From Dyadobacter alkalitolerans DSM 23607 (GTDB lineage: Bacteria > Bacteroidota > Bacteroidia > Cytophagales > Spirosomataceae), in assembly GCF_000428845.1 (NCBI RefSeq), contig NZ_AUAS01000002.1:310001-374000 (forward strand): DNA of 64,000 bases. The letters are read 5' to 3'. A program made the position numbers and the translations under genes. How positions within the stretch are numbered: the first letter of the stretch is position 1; every line of letters starts with the position of its first letter. The notes beneath the pieces were generated by a model. It had not been told where the DNA came from. It was given only the letters and a program-made list of their open reading frames with translations, and ran no database searches. Of the stretch, positions 46,093 to 64,000 are shown one piece after another.

Positions 46093-46103
46093 TTTTTACG
46101 GGT

Positions 46104-47873: not shown

Positions 47874-47892
47874 CCAATGAGCCCGATTTGCA

Positions 47893-47900
47893 CAAACATA
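47893..47900 (-). promoter_or_regulatory. Candidate -7 element of the K+ operon
   Basis: TATGTTTG on the minus strand, 19 bases before the transporter start, matching TAnnTTTG. No matching -33 was found. Confidence 0.3.
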
Positions 47901-47928
47901 AAGCTATTTAGCGCATGTTTAAAGCTGC

Positions 47929-49584
47929 TCAAAGCGAAACATTTTTGGAAATCATCTTGAACCGGGGCTGATCGTCGTCCAGCCAGCACAATGTAGCAGT
48001 ATAAGTTCCCGCCTTTATTTTGCCAGGAATTTCTACATTAAATTCCCCCGCCATTACTTTTCCGCTCTTCCATGACGGCCGGTCGTCCTTAAGCGCCACG
48101 AGATAGAACCGGTTGGGATCTGCATTTTCGGTCAGGCCCAGATATACATCCTTACCAGGAACTTCTCCCCCAACATTGGAAACTTTGATCGCTTTCACCC
48201 GGTAGAGGTAAGTTTTATATCTCGGCAGATCCGGATATTCGGTCACCTGTATGCCCAGATCACTTTCGCCCCCAGAAGCAGTTTTCCACGTATCGATCAC
48301 CTTTTTGCCGAAATATTCAGGAAAGGTGTAGTTTTCATAAAATGAGGGCTCCGGGTCGGGCAGGTTATAATATTGATGCAGGAAGAGCCTGTTCCTGGTG
48401 TAATTATAACTATCCGCTTTCAGTCCGGCGTCGTTGAAATTAACAGCCTTGTCATATTTTCTGTAACTGTAAACGCTTAAAACCAATGCGATGCTTATGA
48501 CAGCGATTTTGAAAAAAGCAGCTTTACTGAAGGGCGCGCTTTTAACTAAAAACAAATAAGACAGGATAAGAACGCTGACAGCGTAAATCTGAAACCTGGG
48601 CGCAATCATCGTTCCCACGCCTTCGGCATAGCGGCCGATCATGATCATCCCCATACTGCCCAGCATTCTCAAAAAGCAGATATCGGTCAGGTCCAGCTTC
48701 CAGATTTCAGGAAATGAGAAGCGATAGCCACCTTCGGAACGGGGGAAAAATTTAAATGCAAGAAAGGTTAGCAGAATGCCGGATCCCAGGATCGTAGACA
48801 GCAATATGCCATATGTATCCGAAATAAATCTGGCGAACGAGCCCGTAACAACGATGAAAGCATGCGCCATAACCGGCAGGCTGGTCATTGTAAAGCCTAT
48901 CTGGCTGGCAGAAGAAAGTTTGAAATCGGTAAAATAAAAAATGAGATATACGACTGTCAGCCCTGTGAAAATCAGGCTGTCTTTCCAGCGCTTTTGTGTG
49001 AGCAGCCAGAATATACAAACCGGCATAACGCTGATGCCGTCGAGGTTGGTGAGCGTGGCTGCAACGGCGATTGGAAATGCGAAAAGCCAGGAGGATTTTT
49101 TCTCCGGCTGCAAAAAATACAGGCACAAAATGGAAAACGCAATCGAAAGCGTGTGCTGGAAAGCGGTAAGGCTCCAAAGATGAACATAATACACCAGGGG
49201 CGAAAACAGCAACAGCATTACGGGCAGAAAGAGCGTAATCTCCTTATTGGCAGACCTGTAAATCAAGTAAAAAGCATAACCCAAAAGTATCAGGTTGAAG
49301 TAACCCAGCAGGATCGTGAGCCTGAAATCCAGCGTGCCGCTCAGCAAGTAACTAAGAATTATACCCAACCGCGGAAACGTAGACCGGTGGTCGTTCTGCT
49401 GCCTGACAAGCGTGGTAAATACATCCGCCGTTCCGTTTTTTAGGACATTGATGGAATCAACAAGTTCCATATCGTCCATAAAAGGCACATTAATCGCGTG
49501 TTTGAAGATAAAAACAGCAAACGCAATGACCGGAGCAGCCATTAGCAGATAAATGAGGAATTGCTTCTGTTTTTCCCGGATCAC
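47929..49584 (-). CDS. GT-C-like polytopic membrane protein of the glycan cassette
   Basis: About 551 residues from a GTG start at 49584, 10 bases after the MBOAT stop. Ten or so membrane helices fill residues 10-395. The first periplasmic loop has NVPFMDDMELVDSINVLKNG, where the Asp pair matches the acidic site typical of GT-C glycosyltransferases, and NDHRSTFPRLG. The C-terminal 150 residues form a soluble beta domain (GEFNVEIPGKIKAGTYTATL). It likely transfers a sugar from a lipid carrier at the outer face of the inner membrane (inference). Exact family not recognised. Confidence 0.7.
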   Translation of the reverse strand: MIREKQKQFLIYLLMAAPVIAFAVFIFKHAINVPFMDDMELVDSINVLKNGTADVFTTLVRQQNDHRSTFPRLGIILSYLLSGTLDFRLTILLGYFNLILLGYAFYLIYRSANKEITLFLPVMLLLFSPLVYYVHLWSLTAFQHTLSIAFSILCLYFLQPEKKSSWLFAFPIAVAATLTNLDGISVMPVCIFWLLTQKRWKDSLIFTGLTVVYLIFYFTDFKLSSASQIGFTMTSLPVMAHAFIVVTGSFARFISDTYGILLSTILGSGILLTFLAFKFFPRSEGGYRFSFPEIWKLDLTDICFLRMLGSMGMIMIGRYAEGVGTMIAPRFQIYAVSVLILSYLFLVKSAPFSKAAFFKIAVISIALVLSVYSYRKYDKAVNFNDAGLKADSYNYTRNRLFLHQYYNLPDPEPSFYENYTFPEYFGKKVIDTWKTASGGESDLGIQVTEYPDLPRYKTYLYRVKAIKVSNVGGEVPGKDVYLGLTENADPNRFYLVALKDDRPSWKSGKVMAGEFNVEIPGKIKAGTYTATLCWLDDDQPRFKMISKNVSL

Positions 49585-49594
49585 GGTCTAAGAT

Positions 49595-51058
49595 CTAGAA
49601 TTGGAAATATATAAATTGAGGTGTGTTATCAAAAACTCCCAGATATAAAATGGCTAGCACGAAAATGGAATAGAAGCTCCACCGCACCCACAGAGGCTGA
49701 TAGGAAAGCGAAAGTCTGAGGCTGTTTTTCTTCTGAAAATGATGGACCATTTCCAAAAAGACAATGAGAGCAATGGCTGTAAAGAACGTTCTGCGCTTTT
49801 GCCCCAGACAAATGTTTTCCATAAAATATTGTGTGCTGAAAAACTCCTGGACCGATGGCCAACCCTTTCCTAAACTTTTTACAAGATTCCACATTATATC
49901 CGTATTATAATAGTCGGCGCGGAAAAAGATCCAGGCAAATGTAACCAGCACAAAGGTGGTCAGGACCTGGATGCCGTTATGAAGCCAGGGAACCCGGTCC
50001 AATCCCACCAGCGACTGGATGTAGGTTCTCGGCTTTTGGGTAGCCAGTGCAAAAACGAGATAAAAGCCGTGCAGCGCGCCCCAGATTATATAATTCCAGT
50101 TTGCCCCGTGCCAGAGCCCGCTGACGAGGAAAACGATAAATAGATTGAGTAAAGCCCGGTTTCTCCCCACACGATTGCCGCCCAAAGGGATATAGAGATA
50201 ATCACGGAACCAGGTCGACAGGGATATGTGCCATCTGCGCCAGAATTCCGAGATGCTTTTGGAGGAATAAGGACGGTCAAAATTCTTCATCAGCGTAAAG
50301 CCCATCACCTGCGCGGATCCGATGGCAATGTCGGAGTAGCCCGAAAAATCGCAAAAGATCTGGAATGAAAAGAAGACGGCTGCCACTACCAGCGAAGGGC
50401 CGGAATACTGCGTCGGATAATCAAAGACCTGGTTGACGAAAATAGCCAGACGATCCGCAATAACGACTTTCTTGAACATCCCCCATGCCATCAGCAGCAA
50501 TCCGCTTCTTACCTGCTCATAGTCAAACTTGTGCTTGATATAAAACTGGTGCAGAATGTTCTGGGGACGCTCGATAGGCCCTGCTACCAATTGCGGATAA
50601 AACATCACATAAAGTGAATAAATCCCGAAATGACGTTCGGCTTTCTGGTTCCCACGGTATACTTCAAACGTATAACTCATGGCCTGAAAAGTGTGAAAAG
50701 ACAAGCCTACGGGCAGCAGTATGTTCAGTAAGGGTGTGTCAGTATTGAATGTTGTGTTGAGTTCCGCGGCGAAGAAATTATAATACTTAAAAACAGCAAG
50801 TACGCCAACGTTTGCAAAGATGCTTAAAATCAGATACCGCTTTTTCTTTCCCGCCGTCGATTCTTCTATCAAAATGCCTGCATAGTAATCGAGTACAATG
50901 GTAAAGGCCAGGATCAGGATGTAGATGGGCCTGAATGCCATGTAAAAATAGCAGCTTGCCGCGAGCAGCAACATCCAGCGATACCGATGTTCCAGCAGGA
51001 AATACAGAATCGTTACGACAGGAAAAAAAATTAAAAATTCAATAGAATTGAATAGCAT
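49595..51058 (-). CDS. MBOAT O-acyltransferase (AlgI/DltB-like)
   Basis: 487 residues with about 11 membrane helices. It has MBOAT hallmarks: PVGLSFHTFQAMSYTFEVYR, YPQLVAGPIERP, FSFQIFCDFSGYSDIAIGSA and ISEFWRRWHISLSTWFRDYL. GLWHGANWNYIIWGALHG places the likely catalytic His at 317, with a second His at 330. Such proteins move acetyl or other acyl groups across the inner membrane to a glycan, normally with an SGNH partner. The adjacent upstream gene supplies one, so the pair probably acylates the polymer made by this cassette. Confidence 0.93.
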   Translation of the reverse strand: MLFNSIEFLIFFPVVTILYFLLEHRYRWMLLLAASCYFYMAFRPIYILILAFTIVLDYYAGILIEESTAGKKKRYLILSIFANVGVLAVFKYYNFFAAELNTTFNTDTPLLNILLPVGLSFHTFQAMSYTFEVYRGNQKAERHFGIYSLYVMFYPQLVAGPIERPQNILHQFYIKHKFDYEQVRSGLLLMAWGMFKKVVIADRLAIFVNQVFDYPTQYSGPSLVVAAVFFSFQIFCDFSGYSDIAIGSAQVMGFTLMKNFDRPYSSKSISEFWRRWHISLSTWFRDYLYIPLGGNRVGRNRALLNLFIVFLVSGLWHGANWNYIIWGALHGFYLVFALATQKPRTYIQSLVGLDRVPWLHNGIQVLTTFVLVTFAWIFFRADYYNTDIMWNLVKSLGKGWPSVQEFFSTQYFMENICLGQKRRTFFTAIALIVFLEMVHHFQKKNSLRLSLSYQPLWVRWSFYSIFVLAILYLGVFDNTPQFIYFQF

Positions 51059-51085
51059 TATAATCTTTTAATTGACTTGAATGAA

Positions 51086-52036
51086 TTACTTGCCGAGACG
51101 GAGCAAAGTACCCGCGACCTTTTCCGTATGTTCGTCCCTCGCTTTCCCTTTCAAATGATACACCGTGTCAAAACACAGGCTATCTGCATACACCGACTGC
51201 CTGGGTTCGGATAAGATGGGTGCTTTCAAATGTTTTTTATAACGCTCATTAAGCTTCCCCACCGCCACGGCTGAGTTTTTATAAAAGCTTTCGGCTATCG
51301 TCGGATACAGAAAATAAGCCTTCGCCCCTTTCTGTATGAACCGCTCCGTAAAGGCATTCATTGTCTCAGCCTGCCCTTCGTACGGGAAGAGGCTCGTCGT
51401 GTTCGGACCTGCATCCACTGTGCGTGTAATGTTGTTGAGATGGCTGACGATATCGCCCTGCGGGGTAAACGCTTTGCGGAAATAAATAGCGTAAGGATCT
51501 TCGACCGTGGGATTCTGAAGAATGATCTCAATACTTAACGGAGCCTGCAAACGATGCAAAAACTGCGCTTTCCATTTCTCTGCCAAACCATCCTTGTAAG
51601 TGACAAAATGCTTATCCTCCGGCACAAAATCCACGACGGAAAGTTGCGACTCCACATCCCCTTTGGGGAAAACATCATATTCAAACGACATGATCACAAT
51701 GTCTCCCTTGTTGATGTAGCCCAGCGCGTCGGACAAAATAAAGTCGATGCCAAGCGGCGCGAGCAGGGCCATATTGACCACCGGCATTCCGGTCATTTTA
51801 CTCAACATGGCGGAATTGATGCCAAAAGCCAGGTTTGAGCCTCCTACCAGGATGATTTTGGGAGAAGAAATTGACTTTGCATAAGCATGTTTGTCTATAA
51901 GCGCAGCAGTAAATGCATTTTTGGCATAATAGGCCGTGATAACACGGTAGGTTAATTCAATAACACTGAGAACAATCAGGGCTAGTATGACGGATCTGAA
52001 CAGCAATTTCAAGCCACGGTTCAAGGTGCTCTGCAT
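51086..52036 (-). CDS. SGNH-like partner of the MBOAT protein (DltD/AlgJ-like)
   Basis: 316 residues. One N-terminal helix (LLFRSVILALIVLSVIELTY) anchors a periplasmic domain. IILVGGSNLAFGIN carries the nucleophile-like Ser67 with Asn68, and FDTVYHLKGKARDEHT near the C-terminus has His294 where SGNH acyltransferases have their Asp/His motif. It probably receives an acyl group from the MBOAT protein and passes it to the glycan. Its ATG shares one base with the stop of the glycosyltransferase gene (TAATG), so translation is coupled. MBOAT follows 27 bases later. Confidence 0.8.
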   Translation of the reverse strand: MQSTLNRGLKLLFRSVILALIVLSVIELTYRVITAYYAKNAFTAALIDKHAYAKSISSPKIILVGGSNLAFGINSAMLSKMTGMPVVNMALLAPLGIDFILSDALGYINKGDIVIMSFEYDVFPKGDVESQLSVVDFVPEDKHFVTYKDGLAEKWKAQFLHRLQAPLSIEIILQNPTVEDPYAIYFRKAFTPQGDIVSHLNNITRTVDAGPNTTSLFPYEGQAETMNAFTERFIQKGAKAYFLYPTIAESFYKNSAVAVGKLNERYKKHLKAPILSEPRQSVYADSLCFDTVYHLKGKARDEHTEKVAGTLLRLGK

Positions 52037-53058
52037 TATTTTTTAACTAAGTTTTTGAAATAGCCGTATGTATGGATAACGGACAGCCATGCTTTTCTTT
52101 TTACCGAATCAATGAAATTGGATCGGGACACATAGCTCGAAAACCGGATCGGACCGTAGGTTTTTTCAAGATACTCCTTTGCTCTTTCTTCCGATTGATG
52201 GTAAAGATTCCGATTATTGTTCGCCTGTGTGCCGCTGCTCGTGCTATCGAAAGGCGCATGCGTTGTATAATCTTCTAGGGTAATGTGCTTGAACCGATAT
52301 CCTCTTTTATATACATCGTGTGACCATATTGTGGCGTTGTCCACCCCACCCCAGTTGCCTCCATAGCACGCAACATCACCATTGGGAACGGTTTCTTTCT
52401 GATAACTTTCCACGTTAATAAGCGCACAATATTCATTCAACCGGCATTCGGGAAGGATATGCACTCTGCCGCCGTTGATCACGTTCTTCTGGATCTGCTG
52501 GCGCGGCGTGTTATAAGTCTCGGTGATTTCCATGGCTTCCTCGTAAGAAGGAACATAATCCTGAAAAACGAAAGGATTGCATTTGCCGGACCAATCCATT
52601 CCCGCCGGGCAACTCCAGCATTGACCAATGGATCCCATCCCGATCAGATTCTCAGGCCCGGCCATCATTTGGTCCAGCATGATCCCGATCATGTCGGCGT
52701 GGAACAGCATGTCGTTGTGCATAATGCACATATATTTCTTATCCGTGGTTTCCAGCGCATATTGGTACATAATGCTGTGTCTCCACCGGGCATCGGTTTT
52801 TGCCCGTTCCAGGTCCATCACGCCCAGGCCTAGATGGTAATGCGGATATTGGATAACGAGGCGCACATTAGGGTCATTCCGGAAGTAATCAATCACCTTG
52901 AAAATCCCGACATAATCTTCGTGCGGCTGCTTGCGTTCGCGGGAAATATAGATCTTGTCGATGTATTGTCCACTATGCTGAATGAGCGACTTGATTGTCA
53001 CAATGGTTTGATAGGGTTTGCCGTAGAAAGCAATGCCAACATCAACTTGGGGTCTCAT
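52036..53058 (-). CDS. Glycosyltransferase (GT2-like) leading the glycan cassette
   Basis: 340 residues, cytoplasmic. The N-terminal GT-A-like half shows VDVGIAFYGKPYQTIVTIKS and KKYMCIMHNDMLFHADMIG; HND stands in the DxD position for metal-nucleotide sugar. The middle is rich in Cys and Trp (GQCWSCPAGMDWSGKCNPFV), possibly a metal site. The family match is moderate; the protein does not follow classic GT2 closely. It is the first of four genes on the minus strand. A short palindrome lies 50 bases upstream. Confidence 0.72.
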   Translation of the reverse strand: MRPQVDVGIAFYGKPYQTIVTIKSLIQHSGQYIDKIYISRERKQPHEDYVGIFKVIDYFRNDPNVRLVIQYPHYHLGLGVMDLERAKTDARWRHSIMYQYALETTDKKYMCIMHNDMLFHADMIGIMLDQMMAGPENLIGMGSIGQCWSCPAGMDWSGKCNPFVFQDYVPSYEEAMEITETYNTPRQQIQKNVINGGRVHILPECRLNEYCALINVESYQKETVPNGDVACYGGNWGGVDNATIWSHDVYKRGYRFKHITLEDYTTHAPFDSTSSGTQANNNRNLYHQSEERAKEYLEKTYGPIRFSSYVSRSNFIDSVKRKAWLSVIHTYGYFKNLVKK

Positions 53059-53107
53059 AAATCTGTTTTTGGAATTTAATATGTAAGAGTTGCCACGTTG
53101 AAGGACA

Positions 53108-53122
53108 GCTCAAATTTTGAGC
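53108..53122. promoter_or_regulatory. Palindrome between the glycan cassette and the sigma factor gene
   Basis: GCTCAAA and TTTGAGC around a single T. The 284-base gap between the divergent genes holds this possible operator; I see nothing else in it that I can support. Confidence 0.35.
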
Positions 53123-53342
53123 GAAAATAGAAAAAAAAACGCTACCGCCTTCATGCCTGTCCACTGCAAGTGACTTATCGGGATCCGTTGGGAGAGGCAA
53201 AACCGGAAGTTATGGTGCGCATTTGCGATTCCATGCCCTGTTTCAATTAGAATTTATAAATTGGATTCTTTGCTTACCTTGAAGCGCTTTTGCAAGAAGC
53301 GGAGACTAACATGTTTTATTACACAAACCCAATCTACCTCCT

Positions 53343-53912
53343 TTGGATCAGGACATTGCGCTTTTACTGGCAGTTGCTCAGGGAGATGAAAGGGCTTTCA
53401 CAGCATTATACAATCGTTACCATCAAAGACTCGCTGTCCACATTTACCGGATCACCAAATCCACCGAGTTGGCCGAAGAAGTCGTGCATGATGTGTTCCT
53501 GAAAATATGGCTCAACCGGGAAACGCTGACCGGGATCGGAAACTTCCCGGTGTATCTCTACGTCATTTCAAAAAACGCCGCATTAAATTGTCTGAAAAGA
53601 ACGGCGCGCGAAAAAGCGCTGACAACCGACCTCGACCCGGCCCTGGACCAGATGCCGTTACCGGAGACAACCGAGGAAGATTACCGTTATATCCTGATAG
53701 ATGAAGCGATTGACCGGCTGCCGCCCCAGCAGCGTCAGGCCTATCTTCTCGCCCGCCACGAGCGGCTTACCTACACGGAGGTAGCCATGAGAATGGGACT
53801 TTCGAAGGAGACTGTCAAAAAATATCTGCAAATCGCGACGGAATTTATTTCGGGATACATCACTAAAAAGTTCATTATCAGCACTTTATTTTTTATTCAA
53901 AATATTCTTTAA
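53343..53912 (+). CDS. ECF sigma factor (RpoE-like, SusCD-linked)
   Basis: 189 residues from TTG 53343; no in-frame ATG lies near. Sigma-2 region: DERAFTALYNRYHQRLAVHI and TKSTELAEEVVHDVFLKIW. Sigma-4: AIDRLPPQQRQAYLLARHER and LTYTEVAMRMGLSKETVKKY. It directs RNA polymerase to the uptake operon when released by the FecR-type anti-sigma factor encoded next. Upstream sequence is open in the same frame but shows no sigma homology. Confidence 0.92.
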   Translation: MDQDIALLLAVAQGDERAFTALYNRYHQRLAVHIYRITKSTELAEEVVHDVFLKIWLNRETLTGIGNFPVYLYVISKNAALNCLKRTAREKALTTDLDPALDQMPLPETTEEDYRYILIDEAIDRLPPQQRQAYLLARHERLTYTEVAMRMGLSKETVKKYLQIATEFISGYITKKFIISTLFFIQNIL

Positions 53913-53989
53913 ATTTTACTAAAAAGCATACCCCCTTTTCCGGCGGGTGATTGTCCTATAAGCACATACCACAAGTAATGTTGCTGCTG

Positions 53990-55174
53990 ATGGAGAATCC
54001 CGAAATGCGTCTGGAGGAATTGTTTAACCGCTATTACAACGGGTTGGCAACAGCCTCGGAAAAAGGGGAATTAATGGCGTTTATACGTTCATCCAAAGAC
54101 GATGCGGTTTTGGAAAGATTTCTAAAAAAAGGCTGGGAAGAACTGAACCCCAGCGATGGCATTCTTACCAATGAGACAAGCAATGCTATGCTGAGTTCCA
54201 TCCTCGATGCAACGCTAAAAGACGAAAAACAAACAAAGGTGATCCGCATAGGCTGGCTTCGGTACGCCGCTGCCGCCGCTGTTTTTGTTTTGATTGGTCT
54301 GGGAGCCTGGTGGAAATTAACCCCTGATCCGGCAACGAAAATCGTTCTTAGGGCTCAAACAAAGACCAGCGATGTCAAACCAGGCGGAGCCAAGGCCCTG
54401 CTGACGCTTTCTGACGGCTCAGCCATAGAACTAGCCAGCGCAAAAAGCGGCTTCCTGACACGACAAGGCGCTGCGGAAGTGAGCAAATCACAGGAAGGAA
54501 TATTGGTTTATAATGCAAAACCAGGGAATGCAACGGAGAAGGTCAGTATAAACACCCTTTCCACACCCAAGGGCGGACAGTACGAAGTGCTCCTGCCCGA
54601 CGGAAGTAAGGTCTGGCTCAATGCGTCGTCATCCATTCGCTTCCCATCTACTTTTCCTTCCTCGGAACGAAAAGTGGAGATTACAGGTGAGGCTTATTTT
54701 GAGGTTGCCAAAGACAAGGGCCGGCCATTCCGGGTGAAATTTAATAAATCTGAGGTGCAGGTTTTGGGAACGAGCTTCAACATTATGGCTTACCCGGAAG
54801 AAGGCCCGTCCAAAACGACGCTGGTGGAAGGTTCGGTATTTATCAGGAATGTGAACCAAAATACAAAACTCAAACCCGGGCAGCAGGCAGCGGTGCTTTC
54901 AACCGGAAAGATCAAGACCCAGTACATTGCACTGGATGAGGCGGTTGCCTGGAAAAATGGCATGTTTTATTTCAAAGACGCCAGTGTTGAAGAAGTCATG
55001 CGGCAGATTTCACGGTGGTATGACGTAGAGGTTTTGTATGCCGGAACGATCCCGGTGCGTCAGTTTACCGGACGCGTTTCCCGCCATGTGAACTTGTCGG
55101 AAGTGTCGGGAATGCTTCGGTATGCAGGTGTGAACTGCCGCATAGAAGGTTCCAGAATGATCATTGATCCTTGA
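53990..55174 (+). CDS. FecR-type anti-sigma factor
   Basis: About 394 residues from ATG 53990 (MENPEMRLEELFNRYYNG). ATG 53978 and TTG 53951 are other options. The N-terminal cytoplasmic domain (1-80) would bind the sigma factor. One membrane helix is at about residues 88-108 (YAAAAAVFVLIGLGAW). The periplasmic FecR domain has TPKGGQYEVLLPDGSKVWLN, YFEVAKDKGRPFRVKF and VQVLGTSFNIMAYPEE, and a secretin/STN-like C-terminal part (ASVEEVMRQISRWYDVEVLY). It senses the STN domain of the SusC protein and controls the sigma factor. Confidence 0.93.
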   Translation: MENPEMRLEELFNRYYNGLATASEKGELMAFIRSSKDDAVLERFLKKGWEELNPSDGILTNETSNAMLSSILDATLKDEKQTKVIRIGWLRYAAAAAVFVLIGLGAWWKLTPDPATKIVLRAQTKTSDVKPGGAKALLTLSDGSAIELASAKSGFLTRQGAAEVSKSQEGILVYNAKPGNATEKVSINTLSTPKGGQYEVLLPDGSKVWLNASSSIRFPSTFPSSERKVEITGEAYFEVAKDKGRPFRVKFNKSEVQVLGTSFNIMAYPEEGPSKTTLVEGSVFIRNVNQNTKLKPGQQAAVLSTGKIKTQYIALDEAVAWKNGMFYFKDASVEEVMRQISRWYDVEVLYAGTIPVRQFTGRVSRHVNLSEVSGMLRYAGVNCRIEGSRMIIDP

Positions 55175-55279
55175 CGCGTATATAGTTAAACGTTTTACAT
55201 TTTATAAACCCAAACCTTTTCTCATCATGACACCAATTCCAAATTATTCGCCGTGAGCGTGATGCCGTTTAAACAAAAA

Positions 55280-55303
55280 GGGAAAATGCGCTAACATTTT
55301 CCC
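55280..55303 (+). repeat. Hairpin in the FecR-SusC gap
   Basis: GGGAAAATG (55280-55288) pairs with CATTTTCCC (55295-55303), loop CGCTAA. No T run follows, so it may set mRNA stability or partial read-through between regulator and transport genes. Confidence 0.4.
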
Positions 55304-55372
55304 CGGATGTTCAGGCGCACCACCGAGCTTCTCTTCAAAAGTCAATTTGCTATTCCTAAACTTTACAAAGTT

Positions 55373-58300
55373 ATGAAAATAAACTTGTTGTCCGTCCTAT
55401 GCGGGTACGAGCAGGCGGGCCTCCCTGCAAAAATAGTAACCATTATGACTCGAATTTTCCTTTTGCTCATTGTCACCCTCACGCAGGTCACTGCGGACGG
55501 ATACAGTCAGAAAATATCGTTTCATGCCCGAAACCTACCCGTTGAAAATGTCTTGAAAACCATTGAAAAACAGAGCGGTTACCTGTTTTTGTACGACAAA
55601 CTCGATTTGCCGGAATCACAGAAAGTATCACTCCGGGTAAAGAACGCCAGCATCGACCAGGCGCTGACGACACTTTTCAGGGACCTGCCGCTTACGTACA
55701 AGATTTTCAATCAGAACATTGTTGTAAAAAAAGCGGTAAAAAACGCAGCCAGGGAAAACGTGCAGCCGCTAAAAATTCCGGCTATCAGGCAGGATATAAA
55801 CCTTAATTTAAAAAGCATCGAACCTGTGCCCCAGCCCATCGACCGGCGGATCAGAGGAAAGATCACCGATGAAAATGGCAATGCGTTTCCGGGGGTAAGT
55901 GTTTTGGTTAAAAATTCACAAATGGGCACCACTTCGGACGGCAATGGTGAATATCAGCTCATTATCCCCGACGGGGCCACGCAAGCCGGTGATGTGACAT
56001 TGATCGTCAGTTTTGTGGGTTACAAAAGTCAGGAGGTCATTGCGGGCAGCCGGACGGAGATCAATTTCGGCATGACTGTTGATACCAAGTCACTCAATGA
56101 TGTGGTGGTGGTGGGTTATGGAACCCAAAACAAAAGCAGCATTACCGGTTCTGTGGCATCTGTCCCCATGAAAAGCATTGAAAATCAACCATTAACAAGC
56201 CTGGATCAAGCCATGGCCGGGCAGATTGCCGGTGTGAGCGTTTCTCAATCCAAGGGTGCGCCGGGCGGCGGCGTTTCTGTCCGTGTGCGCGGAACAGGTT
56301 CCATTGGCGCAGGCAACGAGCCCTTGTATGTGATCGATGGATTTCCGGTTTCAGGGGATTTCAACAGCAGCTTCAATCCCCTTTCGACGATTAATCCCAA
56401 TGACATCGAGTCCATTGAAATACTGAAAGATGCCTCGGCAGCAGCCATTTACGGCTCGCGCGGAAGCAATGGTGTGGTGCTCGTCACAACCAAACACGGC
56501 AAGATGGGCAAGTCCACGATTCAGCTCGATACGTATTACGGCGTGCAGCAGGTCGCCAACAAAATCGATATGCTCAATGCCAGGGAATATGCCGAATTCA
56601 ACACCGAGGCCAGGAACAATGCATGGGTAGACCGCGGCGGCAAACCCACTGACCCCAACGACTTACGACCAGCCACACTCCAAATTCCAGAAATGTTCAA
56701 AAACCCGGAATCGCTCGGAAAAGGAACAGACTGGCAGGATGAAGTTTTCAGGACTGCGCCCATCCAGAACCACCAGCTCTCCGTATCCGCGGGAAGCGAA
56801 AAAACGCAGCTGTTTCTTTCCGGGGCATATTTCAAACAGGACGGTGTGGTCATGAACACGGGGTTTGACCGATATTCCGCGCGCATTAACCTGGATCATT
56901 CGGTTTCAAAGGCCGTAAAAGTGGGTGTTAACATTGCGCCTTCATTTTCATCCAATAAATTACTACCCGTTGAAGACCAGGTTTTTTCAAGCGGCATCCT
57001 GGCATCAGCGCTTTCCATGCCGCCAACCGTCCCCGTCTACAACCCCGATGGCACCTTCACCACATTGTTGGGAACTTCCCCTTACAACCTGGGCGTGATC
57101 GATAACCCGGTTGCGATTGCAAGTAAGATCAAAGATAAAAAGACTGTTTTCAGGACATTAGGCAACATTTATGCAGAAATCAACATTCTCGAAAACCTGA
57201 AATTCAGGACATCTTTCGGGATTGATTACTCCGACGCCCGCCAGAACACCTTTTACCCTTCTGACCTCGGAAGCAACGGCGTTCCCGCACCGGTGCAAGC
57301 CAGAGCATCCGCCAGCAACGGCAGGGACATCAACTGGCTGAACGAAAACGTGCTGAGTTACAAAAAGACCTTCAATGGCAAACACGAGCTGGATGTGCTC
57401 GCCGGTTTTACTTCCCAAAAAGCGAAATACGAGTATACTTCTCTTGCTGCCACCAATTTCCCGACGGACCTTGTGCCTACATTGAATGCAGGACAGGTTA
57501 CAAGCGGAGGAACGGGCATGTCAGAATGGTCGCTGCTCTCCTACCTGGGGCGGGTTAACTATACATTTGCGAGCAAATATCTGCTGTCGGCCACGGTCCG
57601 GCGGGATGGATCGTCGCGCTTCGGGTCCAAAAACAAATGGGGAACATTCCCTTCCGCTTCGCTGGGCTGGTATTTGTCAGAAGAGCCTTTTTTGAGCAGT
57701 CAGCACGTGGTTACCGACCTGAAATTGCGCGCCAGTTACGGACTCGCCGGCAATAACACCATTGGAAATTACAGCCACATAGGCCTTTTGTCCAACCGGC
57801 GATACAGCTTGGGTGCGGGGACCGGCAGCGTCGTGTACGGTCTTTACCCCTCTTCCATCACAAACGAGCAGCTGGGCTGGGAAGTCATGCATCAAATGGA
57901 CATTGGAATTGATTTTGGTATACTCCGTAACCGCCTGATGTTCACCATTGATTACTACAATAAAAATACCACCGACCTGCTGCTGAATGTGCCCGTCCCC
58001 GCCTCTACGGGTTACGAAACGGCTCTGCAAAATATCGGCAAGCTCAATAACAAGGGTTGGGAATTCAGTGTGAGCTCGAAAAATTTTGTGAAAGCATTTA
58101 AATGGTCGACCAATTTCAACATTTCGTTCAACCGGAATAAAGTCATCGCACTAGGGCCCGAGGGCAATCCGATCATTTCAAAAAGCCCTTCATTTAGTCC
58201 CAATACGCACATTACAAAGATCGGCCAGCCGATTGGCAGTTACTGGGGATACGAGGCGATTGGCGTTTACCAATCGCAGGAAGAAGTAGATAACCTGCCG

Positions 58301-58909
58301 TCGGTAAAAGGCAGCTCGCGGCCTGGGGATTTGAAATATAAGGACGTGGACGGCGACGGCACCATTACACCCAACGATGTTACCATCATCGGAAACAACC
58401 ATCCCGACTTCTTTTACGGCATTACCAACAATTTCAGCTTCGGAAGGCTAAACCTGAGCATTCTTGCAGACGGTGTACAGGGACTTGAACTCTTGAATGG
58501 TTCGAGAAGAAACCTTGGGCTTGTGAATGGCAGTTACAGCCGCAGGGATGTGTTGGGTAGATGGCAATCTGCCGACAAACCAGGTGACGGACGCACGCCG
58601 CGCGCCAACACGGTTGCTACCGGCGGTAATGTGAGCTATGTATCAAGCCTGCTGGTGGAGGACGCCTCGTTTTTTAGGATACGAAACATTAATCTGCGTT
58701 ATGCGCTGCCGGAAAAGATCGGGAAAGTGGCTTATGCACGTGCTGCGAGCATTAATCTGTCTGTTCAAAACGCATTTACATTCACCAAATATCTGGGTTA
58801 CAACCCCGAACAAAGCCTGAACGGCAGCAGTTCGCTGACGCCCGGCGTGGATTTCAATGGTTATCCGCTTGCCCGGACATTCACGCTTGGATTGAACCTG
58901 ACCTTTTAA
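55373..58909 (+). CDS. SusC-type TonB receptor with STN signalling domain
   Basis: About 1178 residues from ATG 55373; a later ATG at 55445 (TRIFLLLIVTLTQV) may be the real signal-peptide start. Domains in order: signal peptide, STN (QKISFHARNLPVENVLKTIE through QNIVVKK), carboxypeptidase-regulatory-like (RRIRGKITDENGNAFPGVSV), TonB-box-like LNDVVVVGYGTQNKSSITGS, plug (LDQAMAGQIAGVSVSQSKGA, DASAAAIYGSRGSNGVVLVT) and a 22-strand barrel ending TFTLGLNLTF. It imports an oligomer with SusD. The STN domain relays substrate presence to FecR. No lesion is seen, unlike the remnant at 4500-6690. Confidence 0.95.
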   Translation: MKINLLSVLCGYEQAGLPAKIVTIMTRIFLLLIVTLTQVTADGYSQKISFHARNLPVENVLKTIEKQSGYLFLYDKLDLPESQKVSLRVKNASIDQALTTLFRDLPLTYKIFNQNIVVKKAVKNAARENVQPLKIPAIRQDINLNLKSIEPVPQPIDRRIRGKITDENGNAFPGVSVLVKNSQMGTTSDGNGEYQLIIPDGATQAGDVTLIVSFVGYKSQEVIAGSRTEINFGMTVDTKSLNDVVVVGYGTQNKSSITGSVASVPMKSIENQPLTSLDQAMAGQIAGVSVSQSKGAPGGGVSVRVRGTGSIGAGNEPLYVIDGFPVSGDFNSSFNPLSTINPNDIESIEILKDASAAAIYGSRGSNGVVLVTTKHGKMGKSTIQLDTYYGVQQVANKIDMLNAREYAEFNTEARNNAWVDRGGKPTDPNDLRPATLQIPEMFKNPESLGKGTDWQDEVFRTAPIQNHQLSVSAGSEKTQLFLSGAYFKQDGVVMNTGFDRYSARINLDHSVSKAVKVGVNIAPSFSSNKLLPVEDQVFSSGILASALSMPPTVPVYNPDGTFTTLLGTSPYNLGVIDNPVAIASKIKDKKTVFRTLGNIYAEINILENLKFRTSFGIDYSDARQNTFYPSDLGSNGVPAPVQARASASNGRDINWLNENVLSYKKTFNGKHELDVLAGFTSQKAKYEYTSLAATNFPTDLVPTLNAGQVTSGGTGMSEWSLLSYLGRVNYTFASKYLLSATVRRDGSSRFGSKNKWGTFPSASLGWYLSEEPFLSSQHVVTDLKLRASYGLAGNNTIGNYSHIGLLSNRRYSLGAGTGSVVYGLYPSSITNEQLGWEVMHQMDIGIDFGILRNRLMFTIDYYNKNTTDLLLNVPVPASTGYETALQNIGKLNNKGWEFSVSSKNFVKAFKWSTNFNISFNRNKVIALGPEGNPIISKSPSFSPNTHITKIGQPIGSYWGYEAIGVYQSQEEVDNLPSVKGSSRPGDLKYKDVDGDGTITPNDVTIIGNNHPDFFYGITNNFSFGRLNLSILADGVQGLELLNGSRRNLGLVNGSYSRRDVLGRWQSADKPGDGRTPRANTVATGGNVSYVSSLLVEDASFFRIRNINLRYALPEKIGKVAYARAASINLSVQNAFTFTKYLGYNPEQSLNGSSSLTPGVDFNGYPLARTFTLGLNLTF

Positions 58910-58935
58910 TTACCAGCCCTTAAACTGACACGAAC

Positions 58936-60378
58936 ATGAAATTAAATGCATATATCCTTTGCGCGCTCAGCATGCTTGGCACCGGCTGTTCGGATTTCCT
59001 TGAACTCGCACCCAGGGATGCTACCAACGTGAGCAATTTTTACAGAAACGCGTCCGACATGCAGGCTGCCGTGAATGCAGCATACGGAATGCTCGCCTCG
59101 GCGGGAGAATATGGCTATGCCTATTATAATGTTTCCGAAGTGAGGTCCGACAACACAATGAACTTCGAAGTGGGCGGCAACCTGCCCGACGCTGAGCTCG
59201 ACCAGTTCAAAATGGCGTCTACGAATGAAATCATCCGGCTCATGTGGATCGACACTTATCGCGGGATCCTGGCTTGCAACACGGTTCTGGATCACATCAA
59301 TGGTGCCACAATGGATCAGGCGCTGCGCGAGCGCTTTATCGGGGAAGTGAAATTTTTGCGGGCTTTGAAATATTTCAACCTCGTGCGCACATTCGGGGAC
59401 GTTCCGTTGGTTTTGTCCGAAACCAAGTCCGTTTCTGAGGGTTACAGTCAGTCGAGAGTAGCCAAGGCGGAGGTTTACAACCAGATTATCGCCGATCTGG
59501 CGGAAGCGGAACAAAAACTTCCCGTCGCTTACACCGGAGCTGACATTGGTAAAGCAACAAAAGGAGCTGCAAAAGCACTGTTAGGCAAAGTTTACCTGAC
59601 CATTGGTGAATTTGCGAAAGCCAAAGACAAGCTGAAAGAAGTGATCGACCAGGGAAATTACAAGTTGCTGGACGACTATGCCGCCCTCTGGCCCGTAGCC
59701 AACGCCAACCACCAGGAATCCATTTTTGAAGTTCAATTTAAAAAAGGCGGAACCGGAACCGGAAGCAGTTTTTATAATAATTTTATGCCTCGTAACTCGG
59801 GAACGAATATCATCAAAGTCGGTTTTGCAGGAGGCAGAAACAACCCCACGGCCGATCTGGTGGCAGCGTATGAACCGGGAGACGCCCGAAAAGCCGCATC
59901 GCTGGCCACCGGCTATACCGACGCTGCGACCGGCAAGTTCGTTGCCGATCCCTACACATTGAAATACCAGGACACGCCTTTTTCCGAAGGCGACGCGGAT
60001 AATAACTGGACCGTGCTGCGCTATGCGGACGTGCTGCTCATGTATGCAGAGGCCATCAGCCAGGCAGGTAACGGCCCTACTGCCGAAGCTTACGAAGCCA
60101 TCAATGCAGTGAGGAAGCGGGCGAAACTGGCGCCGCTTGCGGCAGGCTTGTCGAAAGCCGCGTTTGCACTCGCCATTGAGCATGAGCGGCAAGTGGAACT
60201 GGCTTTCGAAGGCCACCGCTGGTTTGACCTGGTGCGTACGGGCCGCGAGGTTGCGGTCATGAACCAGCATTTCAAAGCGCCCATCGTGGCCGAATTCAAT
60301 GCGGTCTTCCCCATTCCTCAGACGCAGATCGATGTGAACCCGCAGGGGATCAAGCAAAATCCTGGTTATACTTTCTAA
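58936..60378 (+). CDS. SusD-type substrate-binding lipoprotein
   Basis: 480 residues; lipobox LGTGC, Cys18, then SDFLELAPRDATN. It has the SusD TPR fold: LMWIDTYRGILACNTVLDHI, EVKFLRALKYFNLVRTFGDV, AKALLGKVYLTIGEFAKAKD, and the C-terminal WTVLRYADVLLMYAEAIS and ERQVELAFEGHRWFDLVRTG. It caps the SusC barrel at the cell surface and binds the substrate. It starts 26 bases after susC. Ligand unknown; the peptidase next door hints at a peptide or glycopeptide. Confidence 0.95.
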   Translation: MKLNAYILCALSMLGTGCSDFLELAPRDATNVSNFYRNASDMQAAVNAAYGMLASAGEYGYAYYNVSEVRSDNTMNFEVGGNLPDAELDQFKMASTNEIIRLMWIDTYRGILACNTVLDHINGATMDQALRERFIGEVKFLRALKYFNLVRTFGDVPLVLSETKSVSEGYSQSRVAKAEVYNQIIADLAEAEQKLPVAYTGADIGKATKGAAKALLGKVYLTIGEFAKAKDKLKEVIDQGNYKLLDDYAALWPVANANHQESIFEVQFKKGGTGTGSSFYNNFMPRNSGTNIIKVGFAGGRNNPTADLVAAYEPGDARKAASLATGYTDAATGKFVADPYTLKYQDTPFSEGDADNNWTVLRYADVLLMYAEAISQAGNGPTAEAYEAINAVRKRAKLAPLAAGLSKAAFALAIEHERQVELAFEGHRWFDLVRTGREVAVMNQHFKAPIVAEFNAVFPIPQTQIDVNPQGIKQNPGYTF

Positions 60379-60390
60379 AAAAGATCTGAT

Positions 60391-61626
60391 ATGTTTTTCA
60401 AAAATGCTTTCAAGTCGCTGGCCGTTTTCATTTTTTGTTTGTTCAAAATCGTTAGCGCTGCCATCGGGCAAACAGCCCAGGATAACAAACCTGCACCCGA
60501 CGTTTTCATCCATACAGGTTTCGAAAACGCCTCGCCGCTCAATTGGGAAGCCGATTCCGCCGGCAGGATCATTATCAGTCTTGTTTATGACCATGAGCGA
60601 TTTTCACTCAACCGGGCCAACAACCACTGGCATTTCAAGGTGGAGGCCCCGGTTGGAAAAGAGGTGACTTTGATCCTGCAAAACTTTGATAACATCTGGA
60701 ACAACATCCACGCCAGCCCTATATCCAAACAGTCGCCTGCCGTGATCTCCTTCGATGGTAAAACCTGGGAAAGCCGCCCCACCGAATACATCGAAGGAAA
60801 CCGGATGCTGATCAGACTCAAAATGACCGCTCCTAGCGCCTACATTGCCAGCATTGAACCATACCGGATCAGCGACCTGGACAAACTTCTGGCCAGAATC
60901 AAAAACCACAAACTGGTAACGATCACGCCCATTGGCAAGACAGCCGAAGGCCGTTCGCTGGAAATCATCAAAATCGGCAACGAGAAGGCACCCAAAAGGA
61001 TATTTCTCCGCGGCCGCGCGCATGCATTTGAAGCGGGTGGCAACTGGACGCTGGAAGGCCTCATCGACCGTTTGCTGAAAGATGATGCCGACATGAAGCT
61101 TTATCTCAAACGTTACTGTGTGTATATTCTGCCTATGACGAATAAGGATGGCGTTGCGCGTGGGAAAACGCGTTTCAATGCGAATGGTTATGACCTGAAC
61201 CGGAAATGGGACAAGGCCGCCGACTCCCTGATTGCGCCAGAAAATTACTATCTGGAAAAGTGGCTTACCAAAATGGGTGCCGCAGGCAAAAAACCAGACC
61301 TGGGCATTGATGTCCATAACGATGCGGGTGGTAACCTGCACATCAGCCGCCCCGACGGTGATATCACCGCATACCGGGCCAATATGGCGAGGCTGGACAG
61401 TCTGTTAAGGAAATACACCTGGTATACCGAAGGTTCCACCAAGCCGGGGTTTCGTAACCCGGGAACATTAGGCGAGGGTTTTATGGAAAGATTTGGCATT
61501 GAAGCACTCGTGTACGAGCTCAATTACGAATGGGTGGAAGGCCTGAAAAAGGCTCCGCTAGCCGCAGACTGGCTTTCCCTGGGAGGTAAATTGCCGGAAG
61601 TTTTTTACCATTATTTTGAGAAATAG
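60391..61626 (+). CDS. M14 zinc carboxypeptidase-like protein, exported
   Basis: 411 residues. Signal peptide 1-27 (ending SAAIGQ), an N-terminal beta domain (30-150) as in M14 proteins of the cytosolic-carboxypeptidase branch, then the peptidase. Zinc ligands are His211 and Glu214 in RAHAFEAGGNW and His309 in GIDVHNDAG. NANGYDLNRKW supplies the Asn-Arg substrate-binding pair, and Glu376 in LVYELNYEW is the likely catalytic Glu. It starts 12 bases after susD and 4 bases before the next gene, so it is part of the operon. It would trim C-terminal residues of imported peptides or peptide-linked cell-wall fragments in the periplasm. Confidence 0.88.
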   Translation: MFFKNAFKSLAVFIFCLFKIVSAAIGQTAQDNKPAPDVFIHTGFENASPLNWEADSAGRIIISLVYDHERFSLNRANNHWHFKVEAPVGKEVTLILQNFDNIWNNIHASPISKQSPAVISFDGKTWESRPTEYIEGNRMLIRLKMTAPSAYIASIEPYRISDLDKLLARIKNHKLVTITPIGKTAEGRSLEIIKIGNEKAPKRIFLRGRAHAFEAGGNWTLEGLIDRLLKDDADMKLYLKRYCVYILPMTNKDGVARGKTRFNANGYDLNRKWDKAADSLIAPENYYLEKWLTKMGAAGKKPDLGIDVHNDAGGNLHISRPDGDITAYRANMARLDSLLRKYTWYTEGSTKPGFRNPGTLGEGFMERFGIEALVYELNYEWVEGLKKAPLAADWLSLGGKLPEVFYHYFEK

Positions 61627-61630
61627 CCGG

Positions 61631-63139
61631 ATGAAAAAACCGATTTATATGTTAGCCGCGCTTTCGGGCGTGGCTGCATTCGTAATGGCCTCGTTTGGTT
61701 ACACGCCAAAACCGTTGCCCGACTTTAAGACAGAAAAATTAGAACTCGATTCAACCATTCTGGATGTAACGACGATTGCTGAAAATCTGAATGTGCCGTG
61801 GGAAATGATATGGGGGCCGGACAGCATGATATGGTTTACCGATCACGACGGGAAGGTCAGCAAGCTCAATCCTAAGACCGGCCAGGTCACGGAGCTTTTG
61901 CAGATCAAAGATTATTACAGAAAACGCCTTGGACTGATGAGCATGGTCCTGCATCCGGACTGGAAAACGCATCCGCAGGTTTTTATCAACTATACCCATA
62001 TCCAACCCGATTCTGTCATTGTATCAAAACTCGTCAGGTATACCTATAATGGTAAGGTGCTGATTGATCCGGTTTTATTGAAGCAAATTCCCGGCTACCT
62101 GGGTCATAACGGTTCCAGGCTTGTGATCTCAAAGGACAGGAAGCTACTTTGGGCAACAGGTGATTTAAAACAAAAAGAAACGATTCACGATCCGGCATTC
62201 GCCAATGGCAAAGTGCTCCGGTTCAATCTGGATGGCACAATTCCCAAGGATAACCCGCATCCCGGAAGTGCGTCCTGGGCTATGGGATTTCGTGTTCCGC
62301 AGGGACTGACCTTTACCAAAAACGGCAACCTTTTCATCGCCGAGCATGGCGATGCCACCGATGATGAGGTTAACCTGGTCGTTAAAAATGGCGATTATGG
62401 CTGGCCCTACATGGCCGGATTCGGTGATTTGCCGGAGGAAAAGGAACATGCAAAAGCCCATAAAAGCACATTTCCTGCGAAAGCCTGGACGCCGACCATT
62501 GCGCCGGCCGGAATGGAATATTATGATGGTAACATTCCCGAATGGAAAAATGCATTGCTGCTCAGTACATTAAAGGACCAAAGTCTGCGCATCCTGAAAC
62601 TGGACGCGGAGCAGGAAGAAGTGGTTGAGGAAGACATTGCATTCAGTAAGCAATTTGGCAGGCTGCGCGATGTATGCGTTTCTCCTTCGGGCGACATTTA
62701 CATCTCCACCAGCAACCGCGACTGGAACCCGCCAGCCAGTTTCCCGCTCAAAACCGATGACCGGATCATTCGGATCAGCAAAAGCGGCGTTATTCCGAAA
62801 AGCAGGCGTACTGTTAAAACCAAGCAGAAAACAAGCCATACAGGCGCTTCTGAATTGTATCAGAACTTTTGCCAGTCGTGCCATAAAGCCGATGGCCGCG
62901 GGGTTGCGGGATCATTTCCTTCGCTTGTAACATCTGCCCGGCTATCCGGTGACAATGAAGCACTTATCGCGCTTTTGCTCAAAGGTTCGCAATCGCCCCC
63001 AGGAGAAGCAATGCCCGCATTCGGATTCCTGAGTGATGAACAGTTGGCGACCCTGCTATCCTATGCCCGGTCGAATTTTTCAACCAATAAAAGCGGAATT
63101 AAACCCAGCGATATCAACCGCCTACGGATCAAACAATGA
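61631..63139 (+). CDS. PQQ-type sugar dehydrogenase fused to cytochrome c
   Basis: 502 residues from ATG 61631. Signal peptide near 1-26. Residues 35-385 are a soluble glucose-dehydrogenase-like propeller: IAENLNVPWEMIWGPDSMIW, GYLGHNGSRLVISKDRKLLW, MGFRVPQGLTFTKNGNLFIA, EHGDATDDEVNLVVKNGDYG and FGRLRDVCVSPSGDIYISTS. Residues 405-490 form a class I cytochrome c with C414-Q-S-C417-H418 and axial Met in GEAMPAFGF. It would oxidise a sugar or similar substrate and pass electrons straight to haem c. PQQ synthesis genes are not in the window. It lies 4 bases after the peptidase gene. Confidence 0.88.
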   Translation: MKKPIYMLAALSGVAAFVMASFGYTPKPLPDFKTEKLELDSTILDVTTIAENLNVPWEMIWGPDSMIWFTDHDGKVSKLNPKTGQVTELLQIKDYYRKRLGLMSMVLHPDWKTHPQVFINYTHIQPDSVIVSKLVRYTYNGKVLIDPVLLKQIPGYLGHNGSRLVISKDRKLLWATGDLKQKETIHDPAFANGKVLRFNLDGTIPKDNPHPGSASWAMGFRVPQGLTFTKNGNLFIAEHGDATDDEVNLVVKNGDYGWPYMAGFGDLPEEKEHAKAHKSTFPAKAWTPTIAPAGMEYYDGNIPEWKNALLLSTLKDQSLRILKLDAEQEEVVEEDIAFSKQFGRLRDVCVSPSGDIYISTSNRDWNPPASFPLKTDDRIIRISKSGVIPKSRRTVKTKQKTSHTGASELYQNFCQSCHKADGRGVAGSFPSLVTSARLSGDNEALIALLLKGSQSPPGEAMPAFGFLSDEQLATLLSYARSNFSTNKSGIKPSDINRLRIKQ

Positions 63140-63337
63140 CCCTGTTATATTGGGTCACATACTAACGGCAATGCCTCGCCGCAATGCATTCTATACCCAT
63201 TTTCACGTCTTATCTGAAATTTCTTAGTAGCTTTGCTAAATAGCGCAGATTCCGCAATTTGCTTTCAAGTGGTTTGGATGCTGTTGGTTTACCCCTCCTT
63301 TGTAACAGCCGTCATGTGAAATTGGTATTTAAAAACA

Positions 63338-63760
63338 ATGCAAATGGTCAATGACAAAAGAACAATTTATCTGGTAGATGACGACGATGACGACCGGATG
63401 ATTATAAGGCAGGCAGTCCGTGAGCTAATGGACAGAGTCAATATCATTGAATTCAGTAGTGGTTACGACTTTCTTGAAAATTTAGTTGGTCACTGGCCCT
63501 CCGAACAGACATTGGTTCTGATGGACATTAATATGCCGCGCATGAGCGGTCTCGACGTGATCAAAGCAATGCAATCTGACCCGGCCAGCAGGCTCGTTCC
63601 TGTTTTGGCAATCTCAACAGCTACCGACAAAACTTTAATTGACAGGGTGATTGCAAGCGGGGCGTATGGTTACTTTGAAAAACCCGTTACTTACGAGCAA
63701 ATCGGTGAACTTGCCAGTAATATCAAGGATTTCTATATCAGCCATTATGCTGCCAGGTAA
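63338..63760 (+). CDS. Single-domain response regulator (CheY-like)
   Basis: 140 residues, only a receiver domain: YLVDDDDDDRMIIRQAVREL with the acidic cluster, phospho-acceptor Asp63 in LVLMDINMPRMSG, Ser/Thr switch in VLAISTATDK and Lys in YGYFEKPVTYEQ. It has no output domain, so it works by protein contact or in a phosphorelay. It converges on a histidine kinase gene whose stop is 11 bases away. ATG 63344 is an alternative start. Confidence 0.9.
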   Translation: MQMVNDKRTIYLVDDDDDDRMIIRQAVRELMDRVNIIEFSSGYDFLENLVGHWPSEQTLVLMDINMPRMSGLDVIKAMQSDPASRLVPVLAISTATDKTLIDRVIASGAYGYFEKPVTYEQIGELASNIKDFYISHYAAR

Positions 63761-63771
63761 TGTCCGGAATG

Positions 63772-64000
63772 TTAATTTGTGTATTCAGGTATTTGTCTCA
63801 GAGGCAAAATAATGATAATGCTGGTTCCTTCTCCTACCCTGGACTTGACTTTCATCGTCCCGTAATGGCTTGAAATGATCTGCTTGCATAAAGCAAGACC
63901 AACCCCCAAGCCCGGCGAACCCGCATTAAGCTTATTCAGCAAACCAAAAACATAGTCATCGAACCTGCTGTCAAACCCAATTCCGTTGTCAGTAAATTCA
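63772..64000 (-). CDS. Histidine kinase, C-terminal part (cut by window edge)
   Basis: The last 75 codons, entering from the right edge and ending at TAA 63774-63772. They encode the end of a HATPase domain: FTDNGIGFDSRF (G1 box), a lid, then GLGVGLALCKQIISSHYG (G2) and VGEGTSIIIILPL. It is probably the partner of, or related to, the receiver protein it faces. Confidence 0.88.
   Translation of the reverse strand, partial: EFTDNGIGFDSRFDDYVFGLLNKLNAGSPGLGVGLALCKQIISSHYGTMKVKSRVGEGTSIIIILPLRQIPEYTN

Follow-up and report, generated by a model that had tools for sequence, protein, structure and literature searches.

In Dyadobacter alkalitolerans DSM 23607, six genes at positions 53343-63139 of a 64,000-nucleotide stretch of contig NZ_AUAS01000002.1 (310,001 to 374,000 of the contig; the whole stretch is called the window here and its numbering is used below) encode a FecI/FecR pair, a SusCD pair, an M14 carboxypeptidase and a dehydrogenase fused to a cytochrome c. 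Comparison with related genomes indicates that these genes form a real, conserved and transferable unit under FecI/FecR, whose products would import, trim and oxidise a ligand. We give an even chance to the proposal that this unit is the front end of a catabolic pathway, controlled by FecI/FecR and by an antisense RNA, with its cytoplasmic half encoded on contig 9 of the same genome. The six genes are the following.

53343..53912, plus strand: ECF (extracytoplasmic function) sigma-70 factor, FecI-like, TTG start (open reading frame (ORF) call; Pfam Sigma70_r2/r4_2)
53951..55174, plus strand: FecR-type anti-sigma factor (Pfam FecR 1.2e-20, FecR_C 2.1e-13)
55373..58909, plus strand: SusC/RagA TonB-dependent transporter with STN domain (frame open upstream to 55307)
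58936..60378, plus strand: SusD/RagB lipoprotein (Pfam SusD_RagB and SusD-like_3)
60391..61626, plus strand: M14 metallocarboxypeptidase with CCP-type N-domain (Pfam Peptidase_M14 and Pepdidase_M14_N)
61631..63139, plus strand: GSDH-type dehydrogenase, of the pyrroloquinoline quinone (PQQ) type, with C-terminal cytochrome c (Pfam GSDH and Cytochrome_CBB3)

An earlier note on this DNA had read six genes in one direction, which the ORF calls and the Pfam and TIGR matches confirmed, and its spacing of 4-26 bases from susC onward proved correct (26, 12 and 4 bases, with the last gene taken from ATG 61631; its ORF starts at TTG 61616 or at that ATG and ends at 63139). Further upstream, 38 bases separate the sigma factor gene from fecR, which is followed after 132 bases by the susC ORF and after 198 bases by ATG 55373. 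This ATG (MKINLL...) is probably the conserved susC start, instead of 55307, since the DNA of 55307-55372 is conserved yet its frame is broken by indels among relatives; a coding leader from ATG 55307 was ruled out on these grounds. The sigma factor scored 121.8 bits with TIGR02985, slightly below the cut-off of 126.4, and SusC carries STN, CarbopepD_reg_2 and Plug domains (Pfam) and matched the TIGR04056 SusC model with 926 bits. An ECF sigma factor and a FecR are encoded directly 5' of SusC on the same strand, as expected of a FecI/FecR-controlled SusCD locus, and the STN-bearing SusC adjoins a SusD_RagB lipoprotein, as in SusCD import loci. The order sigma factor, FecR, STN-SusC, SusD is also that of FecI/FecR-regulated polysaccharide utilization loci (PULs), but here an M14 protein and a PQQ-type dehydrogenase-cytochrome c are found in place of carbohydrate-active enzymes (CAZymes), on a transferable island. 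No glycoside hydrolase, polysaccharide lyase or carbohydrate esterase domain was found by Pfam in any of the six proteins, so the locus was not classed as a PUL in the strict sense.

The genome (6.29 Mb, 50 contigs) gave 122 Plug-domain matches, so SusCD as such is common there, along with 17 GSDH matches (15 above the cut-off) and 3 M14 matches. At high similarity, the window-type M14 and the window-type dehydrogenase-cytochrome are each present in one copy.

Conservation and mobility of the unit

We searched 200 genomes of the family, D. alkalitolerans included. The M14 protein was matched at E 1e-20 or better in 31 of them; 20 matches were close (68-100% identity) and the 11 remote ones (27-32%) were left out of later counts. 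SusD, counted at 80% identity or more (the next best match was at 63%), was present in 17 genomes. In all 17, the gene following SusD on the same strand encodes M14, a co-inheritance that supports the single operon-like unit of the earlier note. The dehydrogenase gene comes next in 14 of these genomes; with longest-ORF starts, it lies -11 to +9 bases from M14 in each of the 14. The complete six-gene order, which the earlier note had proposed to look for in relatives, is seen in 14 of the 17 SusD-bearing genomes and in 14 of the 20 with a close M14, own genome included. Relatives of the SusCD pair without the last two genes had been named there as evidence against one unit. Such relatives exist for the dehydrogenase, as the unit ends at M14 in three genomes (G148, G166 and G172) and in two more named Dyadobacter loci (L143 and L147), but not for M14. 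Conversely, no SusCD was found beside M14 in G125, G145 and G193. The sigma factor at one locus (L047) was recovered as a tblastn match of 60% identity.

With named loci added, the 25 Spirosomaceae M14 genes comprise 14 in six-gene loci, 5 in five-gene loci and 6 solo. In a midpoint-rooted M14 tree of 31 rows, the five five-gene loci and four of the six solo loci form one clade adjoining the six-gene loci, suggesting that the dehydrogenase was probably lost in that clade; the forks placing it are moderately supported (82/63 and 85/91) and some deeper forks are weak. The named relatives comprise species of Dyadobacter as well as Telluribacter and Larkinella arboricola; with D. psychrophilus, the M14 shares 94% identity. 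When the flanks were compared (~19 kb stretches per locus, 28 kb for the D. alkalitolerans locus), just 5 of the 136 pairwise comparisons among the 17 loci with SusCD turned up any clustered gene in common. As flanks are mostly unrelated among loci, the unit behaves as a transferable island.

The carboxypeptidase and the dehydrogenase

The solved structures nearest to M14 by sequence are bacterial CCP-like carboxypeptidases (3l2n, 4a37, 3k2k, 4b6z). Its predicted model (mean pLDDT 76.5, pTM 0.80) gave TM-scores by query length of 0.71-0.74 to 3l2n, 4b6z and 3k2k at 20-23% identity; several loops fall below pLDDT 50, those at 254-266 and 349-355 close to the active site among them. In two alignments of 20 rows each, one of which extends down to 52% identity, every row has H211, E214, H309, E376, R261, N270 and R271. 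We assign to these residues the roles of zinc ligands (HxxE...H), catalytic Glu, and Arg and Asn-Arg contacts of the terminal carboxylate. Fold, sequence and the CCP N-domain (Pepdidase_M14_N) are thus those of the bacterial CCP-like M14 proteins, from which the window protein differs in its SusCD partner and in a hydrophobic, signal-like stretch at the N terminus (by eye).

Rather than as a peptidase, the M14 protein might act on an acidic glycan or glycoconjugate as a de-amidase or esterase, in an ordinary polysaccharide locus without CAZymes of its own. A 26-27% M14 homologue (L050, 8980-10218) lies among genes for sulfatase-like, GH2-like (glycoside hydrolase) and amidohydrolase-like proteins (by eye), related SusCD pairs are found beside BNR_4 proteins, and a 40% dehydrogenase is found beside a Chondroitinase_B-family lyase. 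The invariance of the Arg and Asn-Arg residues, which would bind a C-terminal carboxylate, argues the other way, and we consider this alternative quite unlikely. At two other loci, L137 and L149 (= L037 and L038; D. sediminis and D. flavalbus), a solo M14 gene is divergent from one for a protein of 913-916 amino acids that resembles GSDH-PKD-cytochrome c; after the M14 gene comes one that looks like an aldo/keto reductase gene (by eye).

For the dehydrogenase, the best structure matches by sequence were quinoprotein glucose dehydrogenase B (1c9u, 5min) and 3a9g. H164, R226, K320, R349 and R351, presumably the PQQ contacts, as in s-GDH, are invariant in 19 of 19 sequences, as are the CxxCH motif and distal Met of the cytochrome (C419, C422, H423, M466); the position following R226 holds Val in 9 sequences and Asn in 10. 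The enzyme is therefore like the GSDH-type soluble quinoprotein dehydrogenases in sequence and in the residues taken to contact PQQ, and differs from them in its added C-terminal cytochrome c and in its place in a SusCD-M14 operon. Since the PQQ-site and haem residues are invariant, oxidation with electron transfer to the protein's own cytochrome is plausible, and to that extent the periplasmic oxidation with electron delivery proposed previously can be kept. Among the literature matches listed, there was no PQQ-dependent sugar dehydrogenase with SusD or a TonB-dependent receptor, and no M14 zinc carboxypeptidase with a PUL was found in a search that most subscription papers lay outside.

Links to a catabolic module

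Distant M14 homologues (52-57% identity) were found at six Sphingobacteriales/Chitinophagaceae loci (L151-L156). At L151, L152, L153 and L155 the M14 gene is preceded by genes for a Gfo/Idh oxidoreductase, an epimerase-like protein of 338 amino acids (up to 340; Epim338), a DHDPS-like protein, and MR_MLE, cupredoxin and DUF7133 proteins; domains were searched in L152 and assigned to the other three by clustering. DUF7133 was also tried as a distant GSDH, which was unsupported (probability 15.5). A sister of the dehydrogenase-cytochrome (44-47%, blastp) directly follows an Epim338-DHDPS pair in seven of nine Spirosomaceae loci (L116-L122), six of them with LacI and NRAMP genes upstream and SusCD downstream; the other two are L115, cut by a contig end, and L114, without the pair but with a cupredoxin homologue (42%). 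Between L118 (dehydrogenase setting) and L152 (M14 setting), Epim338 is 63% and DHDPS 65% identical. Two further loci, L165 and L166 (G043 and G108), have the order SusCD-NRAMP-Epim338-DHDPS-MR_MLE-cupredoxin-DUF7133. In another family of the class, L185 holds window-type SusC and SusD (49/55%), a dehydrogenase-cytochrome, NRAMP, Epim338 and DHDPS together, as well as a 51-55% homologue of the BNR_4 proteins. At three distant DHDPS loci (L184, L186 and L187) Epim338 lies beside DHDPS, and no M14, dehydrogenase-cytochrome or SusCD was found there. Because M14 loci and sister-dehydrogenase loci separately carry Epim338-DHDPS, gene neighborhoods in separate genomes connect M14, the dehydrogenase and related SusCD pairs with a single catabolic module, which often includes an NRAMP-like transporter.

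In D. alkalitolerans, a set of LacI, NRAMP-like transporter, Epim338 and DHDPS genes lies on contig 9 (L162), unlinked to the window, and the genomic links suggest that breakdown of the substrate may be finished by this second cluster. The DHDPS gene is found in 38 of the 200 family genomes: 19 of the 20 with a close M14 and 19 of the 180 without. Within the genus, the figures are 15 of 16 with M14 and 9 of 18 without (Fisher p 0.008, uncorrected for kinship). G172 is the sole close-M14 genome without DHDPS, and since its sister dehydrogenase gene lies 189 bases from a contig end (L115), DHDPS may have been lost to assembly there. Of 395 genomes from the wider phylum, 5 carry the gene, own genome included.

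These links bear on a plainer view, in which the locus is a RagAB-type oligopeptide importer with a trimming carboxypeptidase, and the dehydrogenase merely travels along as a passenger. In favor of it, SusCD is always accompanied by M14 but can do without the dehydrogenase, which is absent from 3 of 17 loci, and precedents are known: as far as the accessible parts of the sources go, the SusCD pair RagAB is implicated in protein uptake (PMC11817032), and in F. psychrophilum SusCD is clustered with a collagenase and the dipeptidase Dcp2 (PMC9723704). A SusCD pair coupled to peptide handling is common to these systems and the window locus, and the earlier note's statement that its proposed kind of substrate is unusual for SusCD loci was overstated, whereas the PQQ dehydrogenase is a feature of the window locus that goes unmentioned for the other two in those parts (PMC11817032, PMC9723704). 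On the other side, M14 and the sister dehydrogenase are independently tied to one module, and two of the dehydrogenase-less genomes, G166 and G172, hold the sister dehydrogenase-cytochrome elsewhere; G148 has none at E 1e-80. We judge the passenger view very unlikely.

Predicted antisense RNA and upstream ORF

The interval between fecR and susC, which the earlier note overlooked, contains the following signals.

55275..55360, minus strand: predicted cis-antisense RNA of ~86 nucleotides (nt) against the susC leader (predicted ends; terminator stem 55304-55279)
55366..55373, minus strand: TAnnTTTG (Bacteroidetes -7 box, motif as in PMC7366714), which overlaps the start codon of susC
55227..55256, plus strand: candidate nine-codon upstream ORF (uORF; MTPIPNYSP, TGA stop)

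A conserved GGGAAAATG-CGCTAA-CATTTTCCC lies at 55280-55303, and a slightly shorter form of it occurs once in the whole genome (it is palindromic, so both strands are reported). On the minus strand the hairpin is followed by TTTTTGTTT, which gives it the shape of an intrinsic terminator. A terminator with a stem of at least 10 pairs and no mismatch (G-T allowed) was present in 13 of the 17 fecR-susC loci; under a looser rule (8 pairs, one mismatch) it was present in 14 of 17, against 29 of 340 shuffles. All 13 hairpin loci, which are related and so not independent, have a minus-strand TAnnTTTG at the susC start, 83-87 nt from the hairpin and with the middle two bases varying; the background of this motif in the window is 0.375 per kb and strand. 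From the -7 box and the terminator on the minus strand, an antisense RNA of ~86 nt is predicted, and it probably controls the locus. The minus strand folded better than 198 of 200 shuffles (z -2.69). Structure on the plus strand was weaker (z -1.33, with 23 of 200 shuffles as good) and was dropped as the main feature. At Rfam gathering scores, no known RNA family was found in 53000-64000.

A nine-codon uORF ending in TGA is present in 13 of 13 hairpin loci (a count without a shuffled baseline), 20-25 bases before the hairpin; its sequence varies, and in 6 of 13 it ends in Pro-Pro. Directly after the fecR stop, at 55175-55200, a short stretch (GCGTATATAG..ACGTT) is conserved in hairpin and hairpin-less loci alike and may be the sense promoter of susC.

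The prediction resembles the DonS-family antisense RNAs of Bacteroides PULs, which in the accessible parts of the sources are 78-128 nt long and divergent to susC, with 32 PUL-associated antisense RNAs annotated in B. thetaiotaomicron (PMC7366714, PMC10994844). The Bacteroidetes -7 box is given as TAnnTTTG in the accessible part of PMC7366714. Like these RNAs, so far as they are described there, the window element is antisense to the 5' region of susC, falls within the 78-128 nt range at ~86 nt, and has its own -7 box and a terminator of like shape; it differs in lying in Cytophagales, in the nine-codon uORF just upstream, and in being recognised here from sequence signals. Among other SusC genes, a minus-strand terminator of at least 10 pairs precedes susC in 5 of 18 (L132 left out), one of them with a mismatch, and DonS-like antisense RNAs may be common in the family. 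FecI/FecR-linked SusC genes with a minus-strand terminator just upstream are found at L125, L128, L129, L130 and L133, of which L129 is in the D. alkalitolerans genome itself (contig 18, about 45000-52300). A two-codon ATG-xxx-stop precedes the susC terminator position at L125, L126, L128, L129 and L130 (by eye).

Proposed pathway and substrate

In the pathway that we favor, the unit would be the outer-membrane and periplasmic front end, and the LacI-NRAMP-Epim338-DHDPS operon of contig 9 the cytoplasmic half. FecR would pass SusC occupancy, via the STN domain, to the sigma factor and so induce the operon, and the antisense RNA, made from the susC start region, would keep it low when unneeded. 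SusCD would import the ligand, M14 would then release a terminal amino acid by hydrolysing its amide bond, and the PQQ enzyme would oxidise a sugar or sugar-acid part, passing electrons to its own haem. The product would enter the cytoplasm, where the epimerase-like and aldolase-like enzymes would act on it. The module is reminiscent of sugar-acid routes, with what we take, by analogy, to be an enolase-type dehydratase and a DHDPS-type aldolase, and M14 adds an amide step, so the favored substrate is a compound of the sugar-acid type, to which an amino acid is perhaps joined by an amide. At related loci there are genes for a GH28-like protein, for BNR_4 proteins or for a Chondroitinase_B-family lyase. 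In its most specific form, as an oxidative import pathway for a sugar-acid-amino-acid conjugate with a mobile front end, DonS-like antisense gating and a short uORF, the proposal is put forward tentatively, as a possibility.

A muropeptide or D-Glu-peptide importer, in which the periplasmic M14 would take the terminal amino acid and the dehydrogenase would oxidise an amino sugar, has to be weighed against it. The fold and catalytic residues of M14 fit a carboxypeptidase, and at the closest SusCD relative, L124 (61/62%; G096 contig 46, 225000-244000), the pair precedes genes for a C-N hydrolase, DUF1611 and MR_MLE. We take this DUF1611 protein to be of the DgcN family and the MR_MLE protein to be of the dipeptide-epimerase type; these neighbors possibly point to D-Glu or dipeptide use and keep the muropeptide view alive. 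However, no peptidoglycan-specific hydrolase or amino-sugar catabolism was found in the six proteins (Pfam) or in the contig-9 operon (comparison with a reference set), the module of NRAMP, epimerase-like, DHDPS-like and LacI proteins seems unlike an amino-sugar or D-Glu route, and the literature matches listed include no direct precedent of SusC or SusCD with muropeptides. We regard this importer as unlikely; the muropeptide or glycopeptide substrate of the earlier note is the weaker candidate, the context being rather sugar-acid-like, L124 apart.

Besides L124, several results weigh against the pathway favored here. There is no CAZyme among the six proteins, and PqqC was found in 0 of the 200 family genomes, but in 0 of 14 control genomes too, so that this count carries no weight as to PQQ synthesis. 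Two of the six distant M14 loci (L154 and L156), the six solo M14 loci and L114 have no module beside them. Kinship confounds the co-occurrence of M14 and DHDPS: 9 of the 18 same-genus genomes without M14 also have DHDPS, and nine genomes of genus g17 have DHDPS, two of them with M14. Pfam supports the enzyme assignments weakly, at E about 1e-4 for DHDPS and 6e-6 to 6e-8 for the epimerase, and the matches in the PDB are weak as well (best E 0.0025 for the DHDPS-like and 0.0003 for the epimerase-like protein; none at E 0.01 for the MR_MLE protein). As to the antisense RNA, a still looser scan of the window gave one terminator against a shuffle mean of 0.5 (sd 0.7), and the four hairpin-less loci of the 17 (L036, L040, L043 and L044) are also without the -7 box there. 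Covariation is negligible, a double change being seen at 2 of 25 pairs, as there is little variation in the element, so support for the structure comes from conservation and energy.

Other features of the window

A response regulator gene at 63338-63760 was dropped as a seventh gene, being absent after the unit in other loci. No tRNA was found at 45000-64000, and insertion directed by a tRNA was rejected. At 5234-7999 there is a SusC-like ORF of just 490 amino acids and a SusD-like gene split across two frames (6675-7376 and 7130-7999), directly followed by a sulfatase-like gene (8001-9452); a frameshift, decay or an assembly error may be the cause (by eye).

Implications

The locus would be a SusCD system built on amide-cutting and oxidising enzymes in place of glycoside hydrolases, and linked to an unlinked cytoplasmic gene set found in several Bacteroidota families. 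With its near-fixed promoter-terminator spacing and nine-codon uORF, the interval upstream of susC argues, at the level of sequence, for DonS-like antisense control of susC beyond Bacteroides, and what part RNA control plays at nutrient loci of Cytophagales becomes directly testable.

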